Shown in pieces: positions 18,632-60,057 of a stretch of DNA of 60,057 nt (the first letter of the stretch is position 1; every line of letters begins with the position of its first letter). This DNA comes from Parvularculaceae bacterium (lineage in GTDB: Bacteria > Pseudomonadota > Alphaproteobacteria > Caulobacterales > Parvularculaceae), in assembly GCA_021776475.1 (NCBI GenBank), contig JAJFFV010000003.1, positions 1-60,057 on the forward strand, written 5' to 3'. The position numbers were made by a program, and so were the translations under genes. A model generated the notes under the pieces. The model saw only the letters and a program-made list of their open reading frames with translations, had not been told where the DNA came from and made no database searches.

Positions 18632-21600
18632 CTAAGACCCAAGAACCTGTCGCAGCTTATGAGCCAAATCAACACTGGTATACGGCTTGCGCAACATGTA
18701 TTCGTCTTTTTCAAGATTGAGAGCCGCTTCTGCATAGCCGGACGTTAGGAGGACTTTTAATCCTGGGTTCTTTTTGACCGCCGCGAGAGCGAGGTCGCCC
18801 CCACCCATTCCGCCAGGCATCACCATATCCGTGAACAGGAGGTCGATCCCTGGGTCTTTTTCGATTGCCGACAAAGCAGCAGGGCCGTTTCCGGCTTGTT
18901 GAACTATGTAGCCCAGGGATTCCAACCGGCGGACCGTCACACGACGCACGCGTGCATCATCTTCCACCACAAGTATTTTCTCGCCAGCTCCAGCCGCGCC
19001 GAGATCGCGCGGTGGTGAAAACTTGGCTTTCGCTTGCCCGAACAGCCTGGGAAAGAACAGCGATATGGTCGAGCCCTTACCATGATCACTATAAATTGTT
19101 GCGTGGCCGCCGGATTGTTTGACGAAGCCGTAAATCATACTGAGACCGAGGCCTGTTCCTCTGCCAACTTCTTTGGTTGTGAAAAAAGGGTCGAACGCGC
19201 GCCTTTGTACGTCAGGCAGCATGCCTTCTCCCGTGTCCATCACCGATATTGCGACATAGTCGCCAGGCACGACGTCCTGATGCCGCTCTGCATAGTCTGC
19301 ATCTAACTTTATGTTTGACGTCTCGACAATCAACTTCCCCCCGTCAGGCATTGCGTCCTTGGCATTGAGCCCAAGGTTCAAAACCGCGTTTTGAAGCTGC
19401 GCTGCATCGACTTCAACAGAGCAAAGATCTTTTCCGAGAATTGTACTCACTTGGATTGTTTCAGGAAGAGTGCGTTTCAAAATTCCACTCATCTGCAAGA
19501 TGGTTTCATTAATGTCGATGATTTCGGGGCTGAGAGGAAGACGGCGCCCGAAAGCGAGAAGGCCGCGTGTCAAATCGCTGCCCAGTTTTACTGCTTCGCG
19601 CGCTTCGTTTAACAATTCACCGTGGTGATCGGAGTGTTTGCCTTGTTCGATCAGTTCCAGATTGCCAAGAATGACAGTCAAGAGATTATTGAAATCGTGC
19701 GCAACGCCGCCAGTCAATTGACCCATGGCTTCCATTTTCTGCGCCTGAAATAATTCCTGTTGGCGTTTCTTGTCGTTGGAAAGATCGCGCATGACGCCGC
19801 TGAACAACCGAGAATGATCATAATAGGCTTCGCCAATAGATAAATCGAGTGGGACAAGCGTCCCATCCTTACACCGGCCCGTCACTTCGCGGCCCAAACC
19901 GATGATTTTTTTCTCCCCGGTAGTAAGATAGGCAGCGATATAGCCGTCGTGGTGCGACCGGTCGGGCTCAGGCATCAATACATTGACGTTTTGTCCGATG
20001 ACTTCTTTTGCGCCGTAGCCGAACAGCTCTTCAGCGCCGGCGCCAAACGATTGAATGATGCCGGCTTCGTTAATGGTCACGATGGCGAGTTGCGCTGATC
20101 GCAAAATAGACTCAACGCGCGCGCTTTCTTGATCCAGTGCAGCGTCGGTAGTTTTTTGCTGAGTGATATCGTCGATTGCCAGCAGTATAAGATCGGCACG
20201 ATCATCACCACTCTCAAGCACGCGTGCATTGAGGAGCATCGTCCGTTCTCCAATATTGGGAAATTTACTGCTTACTTCATAACCATCAAGGACCGTTTTC
20301 TTCGAAAGAATTTCTGTTAACACCGTTCGGAGTTCTGGAATATCCCATTGGCCTTCGCCCAGCTCGTAAATCAGCTTGCCTTCAGTGTCGTTCTGGGTGG
20401 TTTTGAATTTTTCATAGAACGAGTGCCCAGCCGAAACGACAGTTAGTGACGCATCAAGAACAATAATCGGCTCTCTAATGGTATTAACAATCGCTTCGGC
20501 GTAATGTTGCGCGGATTGCGCCAGCGCCTCACCAGCTTTTTGCTGAGTGATATCATCCAGTGTGACGACGACGCCGTCGACCTTATTATCAAGTGTCCGA
20601 TAGGGCAGAACCCGGCGCAGTATCCAACGATCGCGACCGTTTGGCAGTTTTGCCGTGGCCTTAACCTCCAGATCGACAGGAATTAGCGATGCGAGCACCT
20701 CAGCACAATCACTAATCAAGTCGTCGTCTTCGAACTCGTACGTGATGTCGCTCAGCGGCCGGTCGATATCGGACGCAATAATATTAAACAGACCCTTCGC
20801 CGTTGGCGTAAATCGCTTTATACGTAATTCTTTGTCAAGAAACAACGTTGCTATTTTTGCGCTGTTGAGGAGATTGTTGAGATCATCGACCGCGCGACGA
20901 TGATCCTCCACATTCTCCTGCAGTTGACTGTTGAGGGTTGTTAGCTCTTCGTTCAGTGACTGAAGTTCTTCTTTGGACGTTTCAAGTTCCTCATTTGTCG
21001 ACTGAAACTCTTCGTTCATTGACATGGCTTCTTCGTTGGCGGCTTTTAACTCTTCGTGGGACACCTCTAGATTAGAGATCGTGAGCTTCAGCTCGCGGCG
21101 GGTCGAATCCAGCTCTTTTTTTATCCGGAGAACAGCCGACTGATCAGTATTCGTTCCTGGTGACGCAGCGTCGTTTCGACTTTCCGACTGTTCGGTAAAT
21201 GTCACGAGAAGAAGTTTACGGTCTTCATTTTCTACCGGTTCCACATTGATCGATACCAATTTGCGCACGTCATCGTGTTTTAACCAGACCCCCTCAGTTA
21301 CTACGGGCCCGTTGGTGTCGAGCGATTTCTTAACGGCTGCGCGCATTTCATTCCGTAATCCCTCGCGCACCATCGCCAGAAGGTCTTGCCCCGCTTCGCC
21401 AGCCGGCACTCTTAAAAACCGGTCGACCGGCCCTGTAAAATACAAGCCAAGTGCTTTGTTATTTATCAGAACAGCGGCTGGTGTGTGGCGCTCAAGCAAC
21501 AAACGACGCGTGAGCTCCTTTAGGTTAGAAGTCGCGTGCGTGAGGGCCGGCTTCTGCGATACTCTTAGAGAGTCGAATCTACGCGTCGAAGCGATTGGAT

Positions 21601-23140
21601 GGGCCTGGCGCACCCTGACATTCATGCGCCGGAAGAGCCGTAGCTTTCGGTCAATTGGATCAAAATACTCGCCTCCTGCGCTCACAGTTTCGGAAGTGCC
21701 CAGTATGAGAATACCATCTTTCTTGAGTGAAAAATGGAACAATCGGATGATCTGTGCCTGCACTTTCGTATCCAGGTAAATCAATACATTGCGGCAAGAA
21801 ACGAGGTCGAGCTTGGAAAATGGCGCGTCAGACAGTAGATTATGCGCTGCGAAGACGACAGTTTCGCGCAGTTCTGTTTTTACCGTGTAATGATGGTCTT
21901 CTTTATCAAAAAATCTGGCGAGGCGGGAGGCTGAAACATCGCCTTCAATGGTATCCGCATAAACACCGGCGCGAGCAATTTCGAGGTCGTCTGTGTCAAG
22001 GTCGGTCGCGAATATCTGGATCTTGAGGCGTCGGTTTTGAGCAGCGGCTTGTTCAATCAAGAGCATTGAGAAGGAATAAGCCTCTTCACCGCTGGCGCAG
22101 CCGGCGACCCAGATCCGAAATGGCTGGTCTTCGGAATGATTTTTTACGGCATCGGGCAGTATTTTTGTTTCAAGGTGTTCAAAGACCGCTTTGTCACGAA
22201 AGAACCCTGAAACATTAATCAAAAGATCCTTCGCCAGGAGATCGAGTTCGCTGACGTCGTTATTGATAAGCTTGAGATAATCCGCAGCGTCTATGACTTG
22301 GCGGACACCCATGCGCCGCTCAATTCGCCGCAATAGCGTACCTTCCTTATAGAGTGCAAAATCGATATTATTCAGTCGCTTTAAGTGGGCGATCACGTCG
22401 CCAAGGACAGCGCGCGCGCGATCGCCGAGGACGGGCACTCTTCCCTTGGCATCAACGCAAGGAGTATTTGCATAGCGTTGTAACGCATTTGGCATATCGA
22501 TGATCGCCAATACCTGGTTCGTGGCGTTATTTGCGATGGCGTTCCGCGGCATGCCGTCATGGGGGGCCTCTGATGGCTCCTGCGCTATGGCGTACCCACC
22601 GACTTGTTTGATGGCCTTTAAGCCGAGCATACCATCGCCGCCCGAACCCGAAAGAACGATACCAATTGCCCGATTACCCTTCTCCTCGGCGAGCGATCTA
22701 AAAAAAGCATCGATCGGTAAGCGATCGCCGTTGCGTTGCTGGGGCGCGGTCACGCGCAGCTTTCCGTCTTCTAAAAGCAAAGTGGCTTTGGGCGGGATGA
22801 CATAGACATGATTTGGCGCGACGCTGATGCCGTCCGAGGCAAGCGCAACGGACATCTTCGTGTGGCTTTCGAGGAGCTTCACCATGAGGCTCTTATGGTC
22901 GGGGTCAAGATGTTGGACGAGCACAAAGGCCATGCCGCTGTTCGCCGGTATCGCCTTCAGAAACTGTGTAAACACCTGCAAACCGCCTGCTGACGCTCCA
23001 AGACCGACAATTGGAAAACAACTGGTTTCAGGGCTCGCGCTGAGATTCGCGTCTCCACGCGCCGCCTTCTTCTTGGAATCGGTTCTGGCAGCCTTATGGA
23101 CAATTTTGGTCTTTTTGGATCTTTTGAGTGGGGACGGCAT
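18632..23140 (-). CDS. CheB-CheR-PAS-histidine kinase-receiver fusion
   Basis: A single 1502-residue chain. Its CheB methylesterase domain (~40-230) has the serine motif GLGASAGG, QHLDPDHKS and the aspartate in SGSGGDGML. CheR methyltransferase (~245-510) has the SAM motif WVAGCASGEEAYSFSML. A long coiled coil (~660-760, ISNLEVSHEELKAANEEA) precedes three PAS domains. HisKA carries the phospho-His at ~1150 in GGVAHDFNNLL; the HATPase has GRGTGLGLSMIYGFV; a C-terminal receiver (~1385-1500) has its aspartate in FTDMVMPG. No membrane segment is seen, so it is cytosolic. Such fusions couple a methylation-type sensor to phosphorelay outside classical chemotaxis. It follows an OmpR-type regulator on the same strand by 155 bp. 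Confidence 0.93.
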   Translation of the reverse strand: MPSPLKRSKKTKIVHKAARTDSKKKAARGDANLSASPETSCFPIVGLGASAGGLQVFTQFLKAIPANSGMAFVLVQHLDPDHKSLMVKLLESHTKMSVALASDGISVAPNHVYVIPPKATLLLEDGKLRVTAPQQRNGDRLPIDAFFRSLAEEKGNRAIGIVLSGSGGDGMLGLKAIKQVGGYAIAQEPSEAPHDGMPRNAIANNATNQVLAIIDMPNALQRYANTPCVDAKGRVPVLGDRARAVLGDVIAHLKRLNNIDFALYKEGTLLRRIERRMGVRQVIDAADYLKLINNDVSELDLLAKDLLINVSGFFRDKAVFEHLETKILPDAVKNHSEDQPFRIWVAGCASGEEAYSFSMLLIEQAAAQNRRLKIQIFATDLDTDDLEIARAGVYADTIEGDVSASRLARFFDKEDHHYTVKTELRETVVFAAHNLLSDAPFSKLDLVSCRNVLIYLDTKVQAQIIRLFHFSLKKDGILILGTSETVSAGGEYFDPIDRKLRLFRRMNVRVRQAHPIASTRRFDSLRVSQKPALTHATSNLKELTRRLLLERHTPAAVLINNKALGLYFTGPVDRFLRVPAGEAGQDLLAMVREGLRNEMRAAVKKSLDTNGPVVTEGVWLKHDDVRKLVSINVEPVENEDRKLLLVTFTEQSESRNDAASPGTNTDQSAVLRIKKELDSTRRELKLTISNLEVSHEELKAANEEAMSMNEEFQSTNEELETSKEELQSLNEELTTLNSQLQENVEDHRRAVDDLNNLLNSAKIATLFLDKELRIKRFTPTAKGLFNIIASDIDRPLSDITYEFEDDDLISDCAEVLASLIPVDLEVKATAKLPNGRDRWILRRVLPYRTLDNKVDGVVVTLDDITQQKAGEALAQSAQHYAEAIVNTIREPIIVLDASLTVVSAGHSFYEKFKTTQNDTEGKLIYELGEGQWDIPELRTVLTEILSKKTVLDGYEVSSKFPNIGERTMLLNARVLESGDDRADLILLAIDDITQQKTTDAALDQESARVESILRSAQLAIVTINEAGIIQSFGAGAEELFGYGAKEVIGQNVNVLMPEPDRSHHDGYIAAYLTTGEKKIIGLGREVTGRCKDGTLVPLDLSIGEAYYDHSRLFSGVMRDLSNDKKRQQELFQAQKMEAMGQLTGGVAHDFNNLLTVILGNLELIEQGKHSDHHGELLNEAREAVKLGSDLTRGLLAFGRRLPLSPEIIDINETILQMSGILKRTLPETIQVSTILGKDLCSVEVDAAQLQNAVLNLGLNAKDAMPDGGKLIVETSNIKLDADYAERHQDVVPGDYVAISVMDTGEGMLPDVQRRAFDPFFTTKEVGRGTGLGLSMIYGFVKQSGGHATIYSDHGKGSTISLFFPRLFGQAKAKFSPPRDLGAAGAGEKILVVEDDARVRRVTVRRLESLGYIVQQAGNGPAALSAIEKDPGIDLLFTDMVMPGGMGGGDLALAAVKKNPGLKVLLTSGYAEAALNLEKDEYMLRKPYTSVDLAHKLRQVLGS

Positions 23141-24920: not shown

Positions 24921-25451
24921 TCAAAAGCCTGTCATAAGTGACTGAGGCAACAGGTGCATGTCCATAGTCATGGTTGAGCCTAGGGAAACCTGCTGCGCGT
25001 AATTTGAAATCAGCAGATTGAGCGAGATATCCTTTGCAATAGTCACATTGTCCAGAGTATTTTCCAGCACTGTAGTTGCGATACCTTGATCCATCGCTAG
25101 AAACATTTCCCTGGTGATCGGGAACTGGTGAGAAAACCCTTGAGCTTCAAGACCATCTATGAATGCGAGAGGGTCGCTAGCGACAGTAGCCAGTGTACCG
25201 TCATGCTGGGTAACGATCACTGCGAATTCAATATCGAAGCCACCGACAATGAAGCCGCCACGAGTGTTACGCAAATGCTGTTCGCTCAACACTGGATCTA
25301 CCGCAAACGGGTCATCCTGATACGTTTCAACATGCTCAGCCTGTACATCTTTTGTGAGCTCTCCGGCTGTCGCGACAGGCAGCAGTATGAGGCAGACGAG
25401 CAGGATGCCCGCGATCGTGAACAAGGACTTATGATGGTACCGGTATCGCAT
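24921..25451 (-). CDS. Secreted RGGF-motif protein of the amyloid-like locus
   Basis: This 176-residue protein has a signal peptide (LFTIAGILLVCLILLPVATA). After a short acidic stretch comes VLSEQHLRNTRGGF, then FIVGGFDIEFAVIVTQHDG. That pattern (hydrophobic, L, GG, then beta-rich start) is seen in small secreted alphaproteobacterial proteins near C39-like peptidases and recalls a double-glycine leader end. The remainder is predicted beta-rich with amide and threonine residues. It is the last gene of the minus-strand set and its start overlaps the stop of the C39 gene by 1 bp. Possible role: minor fibre component or accessory factor (inferred). A similar VLS..LR..GG motif recurs in the 26.2 kb protein. 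Confidence 0.75.
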   Translation of the reverse strand: MRYRYHHKSLFTIAGILLVCLILLPVATAGELTKDVQAEHVETYQDDPFAVDPVLSEQHLRNTRGGFIVGGFDIEFAVIVTQHDGTLATVASDPLAFIDGLEAQGFSHQFPITREMFLAMDQGIATTVLENTLDNVTIAKDISLNLLISNYAQQVSLGSTMTMDMHLLPQSLMTGF

Positions 25452-26167
25452 TAAAAACCCGTCCTGATGTTGAAACCGGAATCCAGCACGCGCGTTGTGT
25501 GCAGCGTTTCAACCTGCAAGCTTTGTTGATATCTGGATGCTGCGTAATCAGGACCGGGCAAAACAGCCCAATCGAGACTGTTATCGAAATTGCGTTTTCC
25601 TCGGTCAACGAAACTGCGAATGAAGAAAATCGTGCCGCCCCAGATGTCGTTAAATTCTGCATCGCTCTTGATCGTCATGCCAGATGATGGGTCGCCGATC
25701 AGCACGCCGCCATTGCGGGCCCCTTTGATAACCACAAAATGCTTATACCCTTTCACTTCGATAAGCGCGATTCCCGGCACCCCTATCTCCTTTATCCTTT
25801 CAAGGGTCATTTGAAAGCCATCGGCTTTAAGATTTTCTCTATAAAGATAGGACTGCATATCCAAAAGAGAAAACCCACGCTCACGGATGTTTTCCTGTTC
25901 ACCCGCCTCCCACATGGCCAGGAATACTTCGTCTTCCGTTCTAGCTAGATTATAATGGTAGGTAAGAAGGGTCGCCAAAGCCGCGGATCCGCAACTGAAA
26001 TCGTACTGCTGTTTTATGATTCGATTGAATCGGGTTTCCTTTATACTCTTGATTTGCAGGCGCGGGTTTGCTCCCGCGACTCCAAGATCAAAGGACCCGG
26101 CAAAAGACACGTTATGTGGAACAAGTGCCAGAAAAAACAAACCTATTGTTAAAAATGTGCGTTGCAT
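25451..26167 (-). CDS. C39-like peptidase, FapD-type
   Basis: The frame extends to a TTG at 26182; I start at the ATG 26167 (GAGG upstream), giving 238 residues. A signal peptide (FLTIGLFFLALVPHNVSFAG) sends it to the periplasm. The papain-fold C39 triad is visible: Cys59 in QQYDFSCGSAALATLL, His143 in GYKHFVVIKG and Asp159 in GVLIGDPSSG. Unlike bacteriocin exporters it has no ABC part. Free-standing C39 proteins of this size occur as FapD in the Pseudomonas functional-amyloid operon, where the peptidase is needed for fibre export. Its substrates may be the neighbouring proteins with L..GG motifs. Peptidase family is firm, role is inferred from the neighbours. Confidence 0.87.
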   Translation of the reverse strand: MQRTFLTIGLFFLALVPHNVSFAGSFDLGVAGANPRLQIKSIKETRFNRIIKQQYDFSCGSAALATLLTYHYNLARTEDEVFLAMWEAGEQENIRERGFSLLDMQSYLYRENLKADGFQMTLERIKEIGVPGIALIEVKGYKHFVVIKGARNGGVLIGDPSSGMTIKSDAEFNDIWGGTIFFIRSFVDRGKRNFDNSLDWAVLPGPDYAASRYQQSLQVETLHTTRVLDSGFNIRTGF

Positions 26168-26191
26168 CGCACGCCGCCTCAAAGTTGATCT

Positions 26192-26587
26192 TTATTCGGT
26201 TCCTGTGAAAATATTCAACTGAAGTGTATTTTGAAAAAGTACATTGTTGCCGCTGTTAATGAATACAGTCGTGAACCCGCTGTTTTGCCCAATCACATTA
26301 TCTGCAATTGTTCCGGTGACGGACCCATCTGCACTGTTGTTATCAACAATACCGGTCGTTGTACTGATATTGACGCCAAGGTTGTTCAGGTCGACACTTG
26401 TTTCTGTACCACCTGCATGGCTGCGCAGCGCCTCATCACTGAGAACAAGGTCAGCGGTAAATATATCGCCGATTGGTTCAGTTGTAGAGAGTTGCGATGT
26501 GGGTAATTCATGCTCAGCGGCGAGCGCGCCACTTGACGTTGTAAGCAGAGCGCTAGCAACATATATAACGAAATTGAGCCTTCGCAT
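26192..26587 (-). CDS. Small secreted protein, putative amyloid-locus subunit
   Basis: I start at the ATG 26587, with GGAGA eight bases upstream, rather than the longer frame to 26653, which crosses a hairpin. The 131-residue product has a signal peptide (NFVIYVASALLTTSSGALA). It contains FTADLVLSDEALRSHAGG, echoing the VLS..LR..GG motif of the 24.9 kb protein. The C-terminal half is rich in Asn, Gly, Thr and Ser with alternating hydrophobic residues and ends FQNTLQLNIFTGTE. This resembles nucleator or minor subunits of bacterial amyloids. It lies between the repeat protein and the C39 gene. Confidence 0.72.
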   Translation of the reverse strand: MRRLNFVIYVASALLTTSSGALAAEHELPTSQLSTTEPIGDIFTADLVLSDEALRSHAGGTETSVDLNNLGVNISTTTGIVDNNSADGSVTGTIADNVIGQNSGFTTVFINSGNNVLFQNTLQLNIFTGTE

Positions 26588-26621
26588 GCCTAGTCTCCAA
26601 TTCTGGTGCTCATCGCATGAA

Positions 26622-26652
26622 TGATCGGAGCAGGACGCACCTGCTCCGATCA
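26622..26652 (-). promoter_or_regulatory. 13-bp perfect stem-loop after the repeat-protein gene
   Basis: TGATCGGAGCAGG at 26622-26634 pairs perfectly with 26640-26652 across a five-base loop. It lies 8 bp after the stop of the repeat-protein gene and before the next start. There is no following T tract, so it is not a standard terminator. A stable hairpin here could protect the 3' end of the major subunit transcript or reduce downstream expression. Confidence 0.7.
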
Positions 26653-26660
26653 CACAACCC

Positions 26661-27707
26661 CTAATCGCTCACATTTGCATTGATGGAGGTGGAGTTATTG
26701 AAACTCCCAATTCCTGTGTTGTTGTTCACGTTGAACACACCTTGTGCACCACCAAAGTTCGACCCGTTGAGGTCACCCGTAACAATGCGCGCGGTTGGAT
26801 CATTGTTGTCATCCTGGGGTACACTCACGGAGAAGCCGACACCAGACAGGCTTGACGACAAAGATGTGTTGTTCAGCATGACATCGCGGATTTGAAGCTC
26901 AAATGTTGAGTTTCCTGAATCAGCAATACTGGTATTCCCCTGATTGCTGTTGTTGGAATTATCATTTCCGGAGTCGGCAACATTGGTGTTGCCCTGGTTG
27001 CTGTAATCATTACCTTGATTACTGTTGTCATTACCTGAGTCGGCAACATTGGTGTTACCTTGATTGCTATAGTCATTACCCTGGTTGCTGTTGTCGTTAC
27101 CCTGGTTGCTATAGTCGTTACCCTGATTGCTGTTGTCATTGCCAGAATCAGCCACGTTGGTATTGCCCTGGTTACTATTGTCGGAATTGTCGTTTCCTGA
27201 GTCAGCGATATTAGTATTGCTGCTTAGGTCATTGCCATTTCCAGAGTCAGCTACATTCACAACTGTATTGCCGGAGTCGGCGGTACTAGTGCTGTGGTCG
27301 TTGCCAGAGTCCGAGGTGCTGTTGTCGTTGCCAGAATCCGCAACATTTGTGTTACCTTGGTTGCTGTTATCGGAATTATCGTTTCCGGAATCAGCGGTGT
27401 TGGTATTACCCTGGTTACTGCTGTCAGAATTGTCGTTCCCGGAATCAGCGATGTTAGTGCTGAGGTTATTGCCATTTCCTGATTCAGCGATATTTGTATT
27501 GCCGTCATCACCATTGTTGGTTGATGCAGAACCGCCATCGTTCCCAACAACGCCGTCCCCCCCAACGACAACGGTATCATCAGTTGCGAGACTACCATTA
27601 TCAGCAGCAGAGTCTCCGCCTTCAACATCACCATCGTCGTCAGTCGCGTACGCTTGTCCCATCAGCAGCGCTGCTGCTGAAATTGATGCTAGTAGGTACT
27701 TTCTCAT
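26661..27707 (-). CDS. Asn/Gly/Asp/Ser-rich repeat protein, candidate amyloid fibre subunit
   Basis: This 348-residue protein starts at ATG 27707 with GAGAGA upstream and has a signal peptide (YLLASISAAALLMGQAYA). After an acidic, glycine-rich segment (~22-65), residues ~66-275 are repeats of GNTNVADSGNDNS separated by NQG or NQGNDYS spacers. There are almost no aromatics and no cysteines. The C-terminal ~75 residues differ: FELQIRDVMLNNTSLSSSLS, then a beta-like FNVNNNTGIGSFNNSTSINA. Low-complexity Asn/Gln/Gly/Ser repeats behind a signal peptide, beside a coiled-coil barrel and a C39 peptidase, match the FapB/FapC type of subunit by context, not by clear homology. A repeat adhesin is the main alternative. 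Confidence 0.8.
   Translation of the reverse strand: MRKYLLASISAAALLMGQAYATDDDGDVEGGDSAADNGSLATDDTVVVGGDGVVGNDGGSASTNNGDDGNTNIAESGNGNNLSTNIADSGNDNSDSSNQGNTNTADSGNDNSDNSNQGNTNVADSGNDNSTSDSGNDHSTSTADSGNTVVNVADSGNGNDLSSNTNIADSGNDNSDNSNQGNTNVADSGNDNSNQGNDYSNQGNDNSNQGNDYSNQGNTNVADSGNDNSNQGNDYSNQGNTNVADSGNDNSNNSNQGNTSIADSGNSTFELQIRDVMLNNTSLSSSLSGVGFSVSVPQDDNNDPTARIVTGDLNGSNFGGAQGVFNVNNNTGIGSFNNSTSINANVSD
26910..27510 (-). repeat. Degenerate in-frame DNA repeats within the repeat-protein gene
   Basis: Units encoding N-T-N-V-A-D-S-G-N-D-N-S with N-Q-G spacers recur about ten times, with spacer arrays (NQGNDYS) repeated tandemly near 26990-27140. Codon differences between units show purifying selection on the peptide as well as local duplication. 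They are coding repeats, not CRISPR. Confidence 0.85.
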
Positions 27708-28087
27708 TTGATCTCTCCATATCTGTTGATGTGTGCCCCAAGATAATCAGCCCCTCACACTTTACGCAGCACAATGGTGATTCGCGCCGATCTCAATCAA
27801 ACACAACTAATAGGACCAATTATACATACTATTGTCAATTTTTTTATTGTATTATTTCTGTCTTTATTGATCTACGTCAATTATATAAAATTTGTTATAC
27901 TTGTACGCTATTTGCTTTTTGCATCAACAAAACGGCAAATAAAGACAATAGACCAACCCCTCCGCAAATACGCCGAGTTGCCAGTGCATCTGAGATTTGA
28001 CTAATGCGAAGAGAACTCTATTCTCTCCGTATATTGATCATTTCACTACATTTTCCACAGTTCTCCCCATTGCGCCCAGCACTTTGG
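27708..28087. other. Promoter region of the repeat-protein gene
   Basis: These 380 bp separate the barrel gene (stop at 28088) from the repeat gene (start 27707). The region is clearly more AT-rich than its surroundings. It holds an exact Fnr-type box at 27867-27880 and a half-conserved copy at 27787-27800 (TTGATTGAGATCGG on the minus strand). The repeat gene therefore probably has its own promoter. Confidence 0.6.
27867..27880. promoter_or_regulatory. Fnr/FixK-type box (TTGATCTACGTCAA)
   Basis: Exact TTGA-N6-TCAA, 160 bp upstream of the repeat-protein start. A second, weaker site at 27787-27800 lies 80 bp upstream. Their spacing is compatible with one or two activator dimers acting on the same promoter. 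Confidence 0.6.
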
Positions 28088-29731
28088 TCACTCCAACAGG
28101 CGATACCGGGCTTTAAGACTGACCGTCGCATCGGGCGCTTCATCTGTCGCTCCGATGGTCGTATTCAAACTAATTCCGAGTTTTTCTACTGGATTATAGG
28201 AAATCCCGAACAGGAGGGATCCGATGGTCACGGCCTGGCCTTCGCTATCGAGAACAGGGCTTTCTTCGCTAATTTGCTCCTCTGCACTAATTTTTAATCG
28301 TGAGGAGAAGATGTAACTCTGGTCATAGCCAAAATTCAGCGATAAATCTTCGTTCAATGACAAGCCAATGCCAAAGCTGGTTCGAATGGCGTCACCCGGA
28401 TCAGACGTCCTGAAAAAGCTACGCGGTGTGTCTTCACCGCCAACGAAGCGGTTGATATTCTGCTTCATATTGTATTGATAACCGACATTGGCGAACAAAA
28501 CAGCCGGATCTGCCGGTTGAATGAATGTCATACTGGGCTCTATGGTCCAGTAACCGGACCCTGTAGGAGTTTCCGACGCCTGATCGATATCAAACGGCCC
28601 TTCACCCGACGGGGCCTTCACGCGCAAATTGGCAATTGTGTATGGAAATTTTTTCCCCTCATTCAATTGCAGATGCACCCCGGCGGTTACATCGCCGATG
28701 CCGGAATTGTTTAGGTTCTGGAGCGCGCTGTTCTGGCCATCTATCTGTACACCAGACACCCTATTTTCCTGGGCAACAAACGGCACACTCGCGTCCAGTT
28801 CTATCCGGTTGGTCATCCCATACCGAAAACCCTGAGAAAACGTAGCGGAAGTACGATCAGTGTCGGTTGCATTTATTATACCGATGAGTAGGCTATCAAC
28901 AATCTCAACGCCGTTAAAGAAAAAGCGATTGTCGGAAGAGGTCGACAAATTGATTTGTGGTTCCAGATAAAATGCACCTTTTGCGCTGAGAATGCCACCA
29001 ACGTCAGACAACAAGTTTACCGTAGGCTCCCTGTATTCCTCCGATGGCCGCTCTCCCACGACTTCGGGAACAGAAGACGATTGTTGACGCGGCGGTGCTT
29101 GAGCCAATACCTGTCGCGGCTGATCTGGAGCCGAGAGTTGGGTTTGTTGAATCTTAGATTGCAACGTTTGTATAGCGTCGGATTCTGCAACCGGAACCAC
29201 TGTGCCTCCACGGGGAATTACAAGGCGCTGGCCCTCAATGATCAGGTTAGCCGATTGTAGTTTGTTCGCTGATGACAGGGCATCGACTGTCACGCCGTAA
29301 TTGCTTGAAATCTCGGAGAGTGTCTCGCCACGTCGTACTATATGTCCAGTTTTGGTCAGATCTGGAATTGGCCCCACCAGTTGTGCCGGCAGATATTGTC
29401 GTGGTCCTTCCGCAAGTGAAGTGGTTAACCGTTCATCCAGTTCCTGAAGCTTATTTTCCTGAACTGATATTCTACTGTACAATGCTCCAACTTCCTCCAG
29501 CCGGAACAGCTTTTCTTCGACAAGTTCTTGTTCGAGTTTTTCGATTCTGGCCAGCATTTCTGCTTGGCTGATTTCCTCCTCAATGTCGCTGGATGGTTCT
29601 ATTGGCTTATCAAGCAACGCCAACCGCTTCGTCTCACCCGGAATTGAAGACACAGGTGTAACAGGCACGGTTGTCGCTATGTATGTACCAAACAAGAGCC
29701 AGACAAGGGCTTTGATATCCCCAGGAAACAA
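28088..29731 (-). CDS. Outer-membrane coiled-coil/LysM/beta-barrel protein, FapF-like secretion pore candidate
   Basis: This 547-residue protein appears to start at TTG 29731, with GGGGG upstream and no better start. The N-terminal hydrophobic stretch (IKALVWLLFGTYIATTVPV) is a likely signal sequence. Residues ~50-105 form a heptad-like coiled coil (AEMLARIEKLEQELVEEKLF). Residues ~130-174 are a LysM domain (HIVRRGETLSEISSNYGV), which binds peptidoglycan. The C-terminal ~290 residues alternate in barrel fashion and resemble the phenol-degradation/FapF-type porins. In Pseudomonas, FapF joins a trimeric coiled coil to a barrel that exports fibre subunits. The LysM insertion differs from FapF. 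The role is inferred; the domain order is visible. Confidence 0.82.
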   Translation of the reverse strand: MFPGDIKALVWLLFGTYIATTVPVTPVSSIPGETKRLALLDKPIEPSSDIEEEISQAEMLARIEKLEQELVEEKLFRLEEVGALYSRISVQENKLQELDERLTTSLAEGPRQYLPAQLVGPIPDLTKTGHIVRRGETLSEISSNYGVTVDALSSANKLQSANLIIEGQRLVIPRGGTVVPVAESDAIQTLQSKIQQTQLSAPDQPRQVLAQAPPRQQSSSVPEVVGERPSEEYREPTVNLLSDVGGILSAKGAFYLEPQINLSTSSDNRFFFNGVEIVDSLLIGIINATDTDRTSATFSQGFRYGMTNRIELDASVPFVAQENRVSGVQIDGQNSALQNLNNSGIGDVTAGVHLQLNEGKKFPYTIANLRVKAPSGEGPFDIDQASETPTGSGYWTIEPSMTFIQPADPAVLFANVGYQYNMKQNINRFVGGEDTPRSFFRTSDPGDAIRTSFGIGLSLNEDLSLNFGYDQSYIFSSRLKISAEEQISEESPVLDSEGQAVTIGSLLFGISYNPVEKLGISLNTTIGATDEAPDATVSLKARYRLLE

Positions 29732-29833
29732 ATTTTACCCCCACATGGATTGATACTTAGAATTCAACATCCCCCATCCCGTACTCATGTAGATGGTGTG
29801 TTCATCTTATTATCTACGTTTCGATTCCAATTC

Positions 29834-30827: not shown

Positions 30828-31619
30828 ATGATGAATAACGTCGCTCGATTGATCGAAAACCTGCCGCAAATACCTGACGGCATGCATGAGTTCGCACGCC
30901 TCCTGCGCGAAAGCTTACGCGACCTTGCGCCCATTATTGGCGTTGTCGGCTTCTTCCAGATTGTCGTCCTTCGGCAACCTTTTCCTGATTTTGCAAATGT
31001 AGTTTTTGGACTGGCGGCTGTGATCGTCGGTCTGGCTTTATTCATTCGAGGTCTGGAGATAGGTTTATTCCCAATCGGCGAATCGATGGCCGGCGCATTT
31101 GCAAAAAAGGGCAATGTTTGGTGGTTGATGGCGTTCGCTTTTGCGCTTGGCTTCGGCACGACAATTGCTGAGCCAGCGCTAATTGCCGTCACTGGAGAAG
31201 CTGCCGAAATTAAGCTTGCAGCCACACAGACAGACCCGACCAGCAATGTCTCCAATCAACAAGCAGAAGCTGCCTATGCGTTAGGACTTAGATTGACAGT
31301 TGCCATATCGGTGGGAGTTTCGTTGGTTATTGGTGTTCTGAGGATCATGCTAGGCTGGCCGATCCAGTGGTTTATTATTACTGGATACTTCCTGATCGTC
31401 GCCCTGACACAGTTTGCTCCGCGTGAAATCATCGGCATCGCCTACGATTCTGGTGGTGTCACCACATCCACGATCACGGTGCCGCTAGTGACAGCGCTTG
31501 GTATTGGCCTCTCGACGGTCATCAAGGGTCGAAATCCGCTGATCGATGGTTTTGGGCTGATCGCATTCGCCAGCCTTACGCCAATCCTGTTCGTTTTGGT
31601 CTACGGCATGGTGGTTTGA
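30828..31619 (+). CDS. DUF1538 membrane protein, first copy
   Basis: The product is a 263-residue multi-spanning membrane protein of the DUF1538 family. It has seven or so hydrophobic segments, a [13 protein letters not shown] motif after the third, and a C-terminal signature [20 protein letters not shown] followed by [18 protein letters not shown]. The same blocks recur in the next gene, so the pair probably forms a heteromeric transporter or channel. Nine bases separate it from its paralogue, and P-II-like and CBS-domain genes follow. The substrate is unknown. The start has a second ATG one codon later. Confidence 0.88.
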
Positions 31620-31628
31620 GAAAACACC

Positions 31629-32450
31629 ATGAGCGAATTGGCAAATATCTTAGGTGTGTTTTTGACGACCATCCGTGATGTGGCTCCCATCGCCATTGTG
31701 CTCGCTTTTTTCCAGATAGCTGTGCTGCGCCAACCGATCCCTCATCTAAAGCAAGTTCTGGTCGGATTTGTCTACGTCCTAAGTGGCCTTGCCCTTTTTT
31801 TAGTCGGCCTCGAGAAAGCACTCTTCCCCCTCGGTGAAACGATGGCTCAACAGTTGACCGACCCGGCATTTGTTTATGGAAATTCGGTGAATGAACTGGG
31901 CCCGGAACAAGTCGAATGGACTAGATACTACTGGGTCTATATTTTCGCTGCCGCAATTGGATTTTCGACGACCATCGCAGAACCGTCCTTGATAGCTGTT
32001 TCGCTCAAAGCAGACCAAGCCTCTGGTGGTGCAGTCAAAGCCTTCGATCTTAGAATCGCCGTCGCTATTGGCGTAGCGGCCAGCATCTCTCTCGGAGCAT
32101 TCCGGATCATCACTGGCACGCCCTTGCACATTTACATGATGGTCGGATACCTTATCGTGATTGTGCAAACAATGTTCGCCCCGAAGGAGATTATCCCCCT
32201 GGCTTATGATTCAGGCGGCGTAACAACATCAACGGTCACCGTTCCACTGGTAACGGCACTTGGACTTGGTCTCGCATCGACCGTACCCGGTCGAAGTCCC
32301 CTTCTCGATGGGTTCGGCCTGATTGCCCTCGCCAGCCTTTTCCCCATTATAACTGTTATGGGTTATGCTCAAGGGTCGCACGCTTGGTCAAAATGGCAAG
32401 ACTTCAATGCGAAGCGAAGATCGGGCAAACAAAACCACGGAAGACAGTAG
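31629..32450 (+). CDS. DUF1538 membrane protein, second copy
   Basis: A 273-residue paralogue of the preceding protein with the same membrane pattern, [33 protein letters not shown] and SPLLDGFGLIALASLFPI. The shared acidic AEP motif and SGGVTTST motif are good candidates for the transport path. Its tail ends in a basic cytoplasmic segment (FNAKRRSGKQNHGRQ) that could contact the P-II-like regulator encoded 27 bp downstream. Gene duplication within the operon is evident; each copy probably supplies half of the complex. Confidence 0.88.
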   Translation: MSELANILGVFLTTIRDVAPIAIVLAFFQIAVLRQPIPHLKQVLVGFVYVLSGLALFLVGLEKALFPLGETMAQQLTDPAFVYGNSVNELGPEQVEWTRYYWVYIFAAAIGFSTTIAEPSLIAVSLKADQASGGAVKAFDLRIAVAIGVAASISLGAFRIITGTPLHIYMMVGYLIVIVQTMFAPKEIIPLAYDSGGVTTSTVTVPLVTALGLGLASTVPGRSPLLDGFGLIALASLFPIITVMGYAQGSHAWSKWQDFNAKRRSGKQNHGRQ

Positions 32451-32477
32451 CCCTGATTTAGCCGAAGGAGACAGTAA

Positions 32478-32828
32478 GTGAAATTCAAATTAATTATCGC
32501 CCTGGTCACTGATGAGATGACGGAATCTGTAATTGAGGCAGGCCGCCAGGAAGGTGCCACAGGATCAACGACGATAACTGCGGCACGTGGTGAAGGGCTG
32601 AACCCCAAGAAAACATTCTTTGGACTGACGTTAGAGGGGCAGCGCGACGTCGTTTTGTTTCTTGTTGAAGAGCATTTGAGCCGGCGAATACTGGAAGCGA
32701 TCGCCCGCGCCGGGCAATTCGAGAAGGCCTCCGGCACAGGTGTAGCTTTCCAGATCGATATAGAAGATGCAGTCGGTCTAAAAACTCAGATCGAGAACAT
32801 TCAGCGAGAAATTGAGGATCAGATATGA
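32478..32828 (+). CDS. P-II-like signalling protein
   Basis: A 116-residue protein starting at GTG 32478 after AAGGAG. It has the ferredoxin-like beta-alpha-beta order of the GlnB fold: KLIIALVTDEMTESVIEAGR, a T-loop-sized stretch (ARGEGLNPKKTFFGL), DVVLFLVEEHLSRRILEAI and GTGVAFQIDIEDAVG. The uridylylated T-loop tyrosine of GlnB is not evident. P-II-like proteins trimerise and gate transporters in response to nucleotides. Position after the DUF1538 pair and a 4-bp overlap with the CBS gene make it the probable regulator of that transporter. Confidence 0.85.
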   Translation: MKFKLIIALVTDEMTESVIEAGRQEGATGSTTITAARGEGLNPKKTFFGLTLEGQRDVVLFLVEEHLSRRILEAIARAGQFEKASGTGVAFQIDIEDAVGLKTQIENIQREIEDQI

Positions 32829-33217
32829 GCCAGAAACCATATATCCCCGTACGTGATGTTATGACACCCAATCCTATTGTCATTGACGGCCTCGCAACTG
32901 TCGACCAGGCGGTGAATCTAATGCGGGACAAAGCGATCAGTTCAATTGTCATCGACAAGCGACATGAAGGCGACGAATATGGTATACTCGCGGTTCATGA
33001 CATAGCCGAACATATTGTAAGCAAAAATAAGGCACCGGAGCGCGTCAATGTCTACGAAATAATGTCGAAGCCTGCAGTCACGGTAGACACCGGCATGAAC
33101 ATTAAATACGCGGTGCGGCTTTTAATGCGCTTTCGACTAACCCGGGCGCTCGTTCTGGAAAGGGGTTCTGTGGTTGGCATCGTAACCTTGCGCGACTTGA
33201 CCATTAGATCGATATGA
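32825..33217 (+). CDS. Tandem CBS-domain protein
   Basis: A 130-residue protein made of two CBS motifs: VRDVMTPNPIVIDGLATVDQ with ISSIVIDK, and VYEIMSKPAVTVDTGMNIKY with VVGIVTLRDLTIRSI. CBS pairs bind adenine nucleotides such as AMP, ATP or SAM and act as energy sensors. It overlaps the P-II-like gene by 4 bp (ATGA), the last gene of the DUF1538 operon. It probably reports adenylate state to the transporter, alone or with the P-II-like protein. Confidence 0.9.
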   Translation: MSQKPYIPVRDVMTPNPIVIDGLATVDQAVNLMRDKAISSIVIDKRHEGDEYGILAVHDIAEHIVSKNKAPERVNVYEIMSKPAVTVDTGMNIKYAVRLLMRFRLTRALVLERGSVVGIVTLRDLTIRSI

Positions 33218-59238: not shown

Positions 59239-60057
59239 ATGTTGCGTACAATTTTGTCACTCGTGTTCTGCCTCGCCTGCACTTGCACAGCATATGCGTC
59301 GGAAAACTGGGTCGTTGAGAAAGCCGAAGGCAGAGTGCTCGTCAACGATGGCCTGGTGACTGCGGGACATGAATTATTGCCTGGTGACTGGATCACGACA
59401 GGTGATCGCTCTTTCGCAATGCTTTCACGGTCAGGTCAGCAAGTCCAACTCGGCGCAAACGCCAATTTGGTTCTGGACAGCAAGAGCAAGCGTAAAAAGA
59501 CACTCATTCACCAGAAAAGCGGCGTTGCGAGTTATAAAGTTGACCGTCAAAAAATGCCGCATTTTGAAGTTCGCTCGGACTATGTCGTCGCTGTTGTGAA
59601 GGGGACAAAGTTCACCGTTCATGCCGACGGGGCAATTCACTCAGTCTCTGTTGATCGCGGCCTTGTTGATGTCAGGTCCAGGAATACACGGGGACGTCTG
59701 ATGGTTGCAGCTGGTCAGAAAGCATCAGCTTCAAAGAAAATATTCCGTCTCGATGAAGTGAAGAGCTTTGAAGTCGCTTCAGCCGACGTAACAGTCGAAG
59801 ATCGCGCCGAGGAAGCAACCAGCGGCGAAGAAGCCACTGGCGGCGAAGAAGCGACCGGCGGCGAAGAAGCGACCAGCGGTGAAGAAGCCACAGGCGGCGA
59901 AGAAGCTACGGGCGGCGAAGAAGCTACGGGCGGCGAACAAGCTACGGGCGGTGAACAAGCGACCGGCGGCGAAGAAGCCACTGGCGGCGAAGAAGCGACA
60001 GGCGGCGAAGAAGCGACCGGCGGCGAAGAAGCCACAGGCGGCGAAGAAGCGACCGGC
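59239..60057 (+). CDS. FecR-domain secreted protein with hexapeptide repeat tail, 3' end cut
   Basis: I start at the ATG 59239, preceded by AGGAG; an in-frame ATG at 59212 is less likely. A signal peptide (RTILSLVFCLACTCTAYA) is followed by a FecR domain: WVVEKAEGRVLVNDGLVTAG, DWITTGDRSFAMLSRSGQQ, HFEVRSDYVVAVVKGTKFTV and VSVDRGLVDVRSR. From about residue 191 the protein becomes repeats of G-G-E-E-A-T and is still open at the window edge (273 codons seen). FecR domains bind or organise envelope partners, and FecR proteins beside TpsB or adhesins occur elsewhere. The tail is acidic and disordered. Confidence 0.85.
   Translation, partial: MLRTILSLVFCLACTCTAYASENWVVEKAEGRVLVNDGLVTAGHELLPGDWITTGDRSFAMLSRSGQQVQLGANANLVLDSKSKRKKTLIHQKSGVASYKVDRQKMPHFEVRSDYVVAVVKGTKFTVHADGAIHSVSVDRGLVDVRSRNTRGRLMVAAGQKASASKKIFRLDEVKSFEVASADVTVEDRAEEATSGEEATGGEEATGGEEATSGEEATGGEEATGGEEATGGEQATGGEQATGGEEATGGEEATGGEEATGGEEATGGEEATG
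59809..60057 (+). repeat. 18-bp tandem repeat encoding GGEEAT
   Basis: About fourteen copies of an 18-bp unit (ggcgaagaagcgaccggc type) run to the window edge without interruption. Variants swap Gly for Ser, Glu for Gln, and third codon positions, which keeps reading frame and charge. Confidence 0.9.

Follow-up and report, generated by a model that had tools for sequence, protein, structure and literature searches.

The Fap system of Pseudomonas (fapABCDEF) brings together a FapF-type outer-membrane barrel, a periplasmic C39 peptidase (FapD) and subunit genes that precede the peptidase gene. Fap secretion requires active FapD, whose substrate the literature calls unclear or still to be determined (PMC5557850, PMC6173800; here and below, citations refer to particular passages of the papers named), and a December 2025 review uses 'is thought to' for its processing of FapE and FapF (PMC12822426). 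Published work takes the GG and GA motifs of FapE as pointing to FapE as the FapD target and reports no FapE peptides within the first ~70 residues; a GG has also been noted in FapF, and a CXXC motif at the C terminus of FapC (PMC5135000). FapA is often absent from true Fap loci, and the 2013 survey in which this is reported listed Fap in Beta-, Gamma-, and Deltaproteobacteria only and had FapD and FapF models that matched larger families (PMC3792158). Because co-located fapD and fapF homologues have been reported in five additional phyla (PMC6173800), the bare FapD-FapF pairing outside Fap is already known. Here, we describe a five-gene locus on a stretch of 60,057 nucleotides from a Parvularculaceae bacterium (assembly GCA_021776475.1, contig JAJFFV010000003.1, positions 1 to 60,057; hereafter the window), which, judged from its sequence, is probably a sister of the Fap secretion system, not Fap by definition and working like Fap, and whose double-glycine leaders predict where FapD would cut FapE.

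Results

The five genes all lie on the minus strand (24921-29731), at the positions at which they were first described among the open reading frames of the window (Table 1). A first-pass annotation made from the DNA letters had proposed a Fap-like functional amyloid locus composed of an outer-membrane protein with coiled coil, LysM domain, and barrel (F), an Asn/Gly/Asp/Ser-rich repeat protein (the main subunit), two small secreted proteins (U and E), and a C39 peptidase; all of these were found, including the LysM domain of the pore. Searches with Fap profiles agreed with the machinery part of that proposal, F matching the NCBIfam FapF model (NF058560, E value 4.5e-38) at 131 bits and the peptidase the FapD model (NF058616, E value 3.7e-39) at 134 bits, both below the equivalog cut-offs of 700 and 330 bits, respectively. 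F also matched the FapF crystal chains 5o67, 5o65, and 5o68 (E values 3.7e-28 to 3.9e-27) and was the one gene of the window genome matched by the FapF model at E value <=0.001. The peptidase belongs to C39 (PF03412, E value 1.4e-20) and carries the catalytic residues Q58, C64, H148, and D164, which are invariant in 22 aligned C39 proteins of the sister group defined below; its match to solved C39 domains of bacteriocin transporters was weak (best E value 1.5e-4; 6mpz and others). It is the one C39 of FapD-like kind in its genome, the other C39 match (contig 5) being weak (E value 1.3e-6).

The order subunit-U-C39-E is collinear with fapB/C-D-E and F alone is displaced, to the front, so the earlier remark that gene order differs from Fap is true of F only. 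Along subunit-U-C39-E, the gaps are 7, 9, and -1 nucleotides between the longest frames, or 73, 24, and -1 with the likely ATG starts of C39 (26167) and U (26587), signal peptides and start choices having been judged by eye. Because 380 nucleotides separate the end of F from the start of the subunit gene, F may be its own transcript. An in-frame ATG at 29770, 13 codons upstream of the TTG start of F, is followed by a TAA before the TTG (29729-29770), and a GGGGG stretch lies just before the TTG. No sixth gene that could be a fapA candidate was seen at the locus, fapA not having been searched for with a model. The full set recurs in the relatives L019, L020, and L022-L025, as a synteny search revealed, which speaks against a chance grouping.

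The substrate of a C39 peptidase is expected to carry a double-glycine leader, and one was found behind the Sec signal of E; in the window, both U and E show LSxxxLxxxxGG after the signal peptide. These leaders and the fap-like order, F excepted, are points absent from the first-pass annotation. In all 37 sister loci, E adjoins the downstream end of C39 on the same strand (some frames start early and overlap C39), and its leader follows the frame L-S-x-x-E-L-x-x-x-R-G-G-F, with L at -7 in 36/37, R at -3 in 36/37, G at -2 in 37/37, and G at -1 in 35/37. The outer positions are looser: 33 of the 37 carry one of the hydrophobic residues L, V, M, and I at -12, and 15 carry S at -11. FapE from 16 Fap loci has the same frame with another residue at -1: L occupies -7 in 13 (M in 3), R occupies -3 in 14, and all 16 have G at -2, R or K at -1 (11 and 5), and then Y or F. 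The FapE leader ends at amino acids 40-118 of the longest frame (40-60 in 12 of the 16 loci), which fits the published lack of FapE peptides within the first ~70 residues. RGG is also present in E of two later loci, L144 and L145, which lie outside the C39 tree.

Several comparisons bear on how specific this motif is. The FapE proteins were recruited by iteration of the E profile, at E value <1e-3, from 5 of the 15 listed Fap loci in round one and from 15/15 in round two; the sixteenth, L135, was outside the 15 listed for that iteration (score band). Profile comparison of E with FapE gave a probability of 95% for the whole and 96.9% for the leader (E value 1.6e-10), and the motif-registered leader windows scored 38.9, the best of 100 column shuffles reaching 13.2. 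When the two small proteins were shuffled, 100 and 137 of 20000 shuffled sequences contained the pattern [LMIV][ST]xxx[LM]xxxxGG; it occurs in 3 of the 153 window open reading frames of >=80 amino acids, two of which are the U and E genes, and in 43/3840 open reading frames of other loci, where 20 are E or U picks. The shared frame predicts, on the strength of these alignments, where FapD would cut FapE. What is new here is the leader frame of FapE with its RG-R/K site, FapE as suspected target being already published; no description of the leader frame in FapE, or of LysM in a FapF relative, was found in open-licence PubMed Central papers (supplements excluded).

The comparison draws on 68 loci, of which 61 have a C39 gene in the stretch and seven do not (L021, L026-L030, and L090). 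Of the 61 peptidases in the tree, 37 are sister, 16 are Fap, and 8 belong to neither; loci had been labelled sister or Fap by C39 scores and the E leader ahead of the tree, which agreed, placing each group on one side of a branch (Shimodaira-Hasegawa-like approximate likelihood ratio test 96 for sister and 97 for Fap; a quick tree with no bootstrap). The window peptidase falls outside the Fap clade. The sister and Fap groups differ at three C39 positions considered as specificity candidates (Y60 to T, S66 to A, H76 to A/G). E was found in 54 loci, namely the 37 sister loci, the 16 Fap loci, and L033 (RGGF, neither clade), and was not found with the E profile in L091, L092, and L136-L140. F is present in the stretch in 35/37 sister loci, F or C39 having served to find these loci.

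At the scale of genomes, the FapF model matched 34 of 398 in the phylum at E value <=1e-15, with 7 above the cut-off; of its 41 places, 31 were examined and 30 of these have a C39 gene in the stretch. The barrel search returned 15/150 genomes of the order, the window's own included, and did not find the barrel in the 3 other same-genus genomes listed. A C39 alignment search of the class gave 22/385 genomes at E value <=1e-30, some of the matches being C39 kin outside the sister clade. Plasmid records also contain relatives of F (18 records) and of C39 (28 records), including some from Croceicoccus, Polymorphobacter, Cupriavidus, Vibrio, and Indioceanicola; five plasmid loci were examined. Three of the sampled genomes combine a sister locus with a Fap-type one, G636 (L130 and L135), G179 (L071 and L072), and G233 (L074 and L075), and the Fap-type loci L073, L077, and L135 are in genomes of the window's class.

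The main subunit, of 348 amino acids, contains 76 N, 54 S, 46 G, and 45 D and is built of tandem units with 10 NQGN and 10 ADSGN. No Pfam or NCBIfam family matched the main subunit, U, or E at E value <=1. A profile of 25 sister main-subunit tails, of which at least one pick is wrong (L032), matched 3/1183 open reading frames of Fap loci at E value <0.01, all of them FapB tails by position and size, and none after shuffling. At the same threshold it matched 12/32 U proteins beside C39 and 0/37 E proteins; the raw U count of 14/35 was reduced by removing L127 (a training row), L099, and L126 (not adjoining C39, like L127). The earlier statement that the subunits are without recognisable Fap sequence thus stands for the Fap repeats, none of which were found, and gives way for the E leader, which matches that of FapE, and for the subunit tail, which weakly matches FapB. 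From the tail matches in FapB and U, the C-terminal unit may be common to subunits and FapB, with the long low-complexity part being lineage-specific. The make-up of the main subunit is G-/A-rich in L072, L086, L088, and L098 and N/D/S-rich in L019, L020, and L022-L025, with the tail kept. Homology of the sister subunits to the Fap repeats themselves was considered and rejected, since the strict repeat model gave no matches and the weak FapB tail match falls short of the family repeats. U lies beside and upstream of C39 as best match to its profile family in 32/37 sister loci, and 18 of these 32 U proteins have a GG leader.

Table 1. Features of the locus and related genes (window positions unless a locus is named)
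Feature	Position	Strand	Basis
F: FapF-like outer-membrane barrel with N-terminal helix/coiled coil and LysM; TTG start	28088-29731	-	FapF model and PDB match
FapF-like barrel, amino acids 231-547 of F	28091-29041	-	phmmer match to 5o67 spans amino acids 231-543
LysM domain, amino acids 130-173 of F, in the coiled coil/barrel linker	29213-29344	-	PF01476, E value 1.5e-12
Main secreted repeat subunit, N/S/G/D-rich, 348 amino acids	26661-27707	-	Composition, tandem units; counterparts in relatives
C-terminal motif of main subunit, GVFNVNNNTGIGSFNNSTSINANV	26670-26741	-	Common to small subunit; weakly to FapB terminal repeat
U: small secreted subunit; probable start ATG 26587	26192-26653	-	Profile family
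Double-glycine leader of U, LSDEALRSHAGG; predicted C39 site	26408-26443	-	Motif
FapD-like C39 cysteine peptidase; Sec signal by eye; probable start ATG 26167	25451-26182	-	PF03412, NF058616
E: secreted protein in FapE position, final operon gene	24921-25451	-	Profile family
Double-glycine leader of E, LSEQHLRNTRGG, then F residue; predicted C39 cleavage site	25254-25289	-	Motif
Sigma-54 activator genes	L019:1963-3174; L020:11141-12340; L022:6433-7617; L024:6244-7455; L025:10885-12048		PF00158

Discussion

Our analyses make it likely that the locus encodes a sister of the Fap secretion system in which E and U are trimmed by C39 and the subunit passes through F to form a fibre or matrix at the cell surface. 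The resemblance to Fap lies in the FapF-type barrel, the periplasmic C39, the FapE-position protein with the same leader frame, and the subunit genes placed before C39. In the proposed mechanism, Sec would export the subunit, U, E, C39, and F, and the periplasmic C39 would remove the leaders of E and U at (R/A)GG, a step that would license E/U as gatekeeper, anchor, or nucleator. The main subunit, still unfolded, would leave through the F barrel and assemble at the cell surface via its C-terminal motif as a surface fibre or matrix protein, with LysM, in this family, fixing the F pore to peptidoglycan.

A number of observations weigh against this account or set the locus apart from Fap. The window F and FapD-like C39 score far under the curated FapF and FapD cut-offs. 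In contrast to Fap, F comes first and contains LysM, the leader has Gly at -1 where Fap has Arg/Lys, and the peptidase belongs to a separate clade of the C39 tree; the CXXC of FapC is absent from the main subunit, which has no Cys at all. The imperfect repeats of FapB/C were not found in any of 2878 open reading frames of the 37 sister loci, window included (E value <1), with a 35-column model built from 20 Fap repeats picked by pattern, whose sensitivity on other Fap repeats was not assessed. The link between E and FapE rests on leader and gene position, because the mature parts do not align (probability 1%), and the E profile was seeded with 17 proteins selected for having the motif; GG was found in 19 of the 21 sister loci that contributed no seed. 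There are also exceptions to the leader, both in E (RGT in L128 and VGR in L099) and in U, where 14/32 proteins are without a GG leader, and Fap proteins have been said to lack canonical C39 sequences (PMC5557850). Six F-bearing genomes of the order have no C39 beside F; C39 is on another contig in G149 and elsewhere in G117, and the other four have none at E value <=1e-15. Lastly, AlphaFold models of U and F, from two-row alignments (window and L019), had a mean predicted local distance difference test score of 32.3 and 32.5, respectively.

The first-pass proposal of a functional amyloid locus was supported in part: homology supports its Fap-like machinery, through the FapF barrel, the FapD-type C39, the FapE-type leader and position, and the gene order, and does not support its amyloid part, given the missing Fap repeats. 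That Fap-like machinery here delivers a hydrophilic product that is soluble or gel-like, a matrix or adhesin and not amyloid, is nearly an even prospect: N, S, G, and D dominate the main subunit, its make-up shifts between lineages while the tail is kept, and the sister loci yielded no Fap repeats, although the tail resembles the FapB terminal repeat and the tandem units could stack. An amyloid product is a guess to which we give somewhat less than an even chance.

The sister-system reading also has to be set against one in which F would be a porin for uptake, of the Phenol_MetA_deg/COG4313 kind, and only by chance the neighbour of an unrelated secreted repeat protein. PF13557 does match F (E value 3e-10), and in L027 and L028, two of the four genomes without a C39 match mentioned above, F occurs with no subunit, C39, or E gene nearby, between CoA-transferase-like genes (by eye) and a lytic-transglycolase and SPOR gene. 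FapF is nevertheless a far better match to F, and C39 and E are near F in 35/37 sister loci, a set collected by searching for F or C39, so we regard the porin explanation as improbable for the window. The lone F genes themselves (L027:8886-10331 and L028:8150-9547), which carry an RGAG linker motif, represent a possible second use of the barrel.

The linker of F differs between lineages. LysM (PF01476) is present in 8/20 aligned F proteins scanned, namely those of the window, L019, and six loci of the same family by alignment, which suggests from domain content a peptidoglycan-tethered pore in the LysM-bearing clade. RG-x motifs are found in the linker of non-LysM F proteins from L032, L083, L086, L088, L089, L098, L126, L128, L133, and L134, and other non-LysM F proteins compared are without it. 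The motif is also present in F of the Fap loci L073 and L077 and in the lone F of L027, L028, and L030, whose genomes have no C39 match. As a lead, the RG-x motif of the linker may be a C39 site.

Similar leaders precede the peptidase of another system, the putative pilus Fil. The window C39 matches FilB (E value 3.5e-32) and its barrel FilC (E value 6.1e-19), at 112 bits against a NCBIfam cut-off of 475 and 69 against 630, both short of Fil membership. The leader frame recurs in the gene that precedes FilB, with GQ at its end in 6/8 Fil loci (L091 being the same place as L148), whereas Gly holds -1 here; L151 and L152, and likewise L154 and L155, which cover longer stretches of those genomes, yielded unrelated matches or none. 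In the C39 tree, Fil forms a separate long branch (2 rows). We put forward, at about even odds, that Sec-exported C39 peptidases are one class that reads a bipartite signal, a Sec peptide and then a double-glycine-type leader with L-12, L-7, and G-2 shared and a clade-specific -1 residue (Gly in the sister family, Arg/Lys in Fap, and Gln in Fil). From the shared frame and the clade-specific -1 it would follow that FapD cuts FapE at L-x-D-x-E-L/M-x-x-x-R-G-R/K-Y/F and that the cutting of E opens secretion. The same proposal, at those odds, includes the idea that some pores bear a leader-like linker motif whose place LysM took here, a cleavable linker being traded for a peptidoglycan anchor.

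A peptide or bacteriocin export locus, using C39 and double-glycine leaders as in type I secretion, would account for the canonical leader motif and the C39 family, which is shared with the PCAT/ComA transporter domains that recognise such leaders (PMC5557850), but is very improbable, since those domains act on the cytosolic side within ATP-binding cassette (ABC) transporters (PMC5557850), whereas here the C39 is a separate enzyme with a Sec-like signal and the small proteins carry signals ahead of the leader (both by eye), no ABC transporter or HlyD gene, fused to or beside C39, was seen by eye in the translated open reading frames at 22-33 kb, and the best model matches of the peptidase are FapD and FilB.

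For the study of Fap, the undisguised GG motif of the sister family gives an exact site to test for the unproven FapD target, reducing the FapD substrate question to a point-mutation experiment. For surveys, the analysis brings out a group of loci, spread across the sampled phylum, that would escape a published screen anchored on the FapB/C repeat (PMC12822426).

Regulation and surroundings

Promoter searches gave no support for sigma-54 control, with 66 sites found for TGGCAC-N5-TTGC at <=2 mismatches against a mean of 68.25 by chance, and sigma-70-like sites numbered 8 against 7.5 by chance. No sigma-54 activator gene lies next to F in the window. A stand-alone gene of this type (PF00158, E value 7.4e-57 or better) adjoins F in L019, L020, L022, L024, and L025, the five loci scanned. 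Just downstream of the window locus are CRP/FNR-type and OmpR-type regulator genes, and positions 18632-23140 encode a hybrid protein of 1502 amino acids with CheB, CheR, PAS, histidine kinase, and receiver parts, adjoining an OmpR-type regulator. On the other side, two DUF1538 genes are followed by a P-II-like gene and a CBS-domain gene (30828-33217). Tandem repeats are present at both ends of the window, with units of 141 bp at 1-378 and of 18 bp at 59804-60057.

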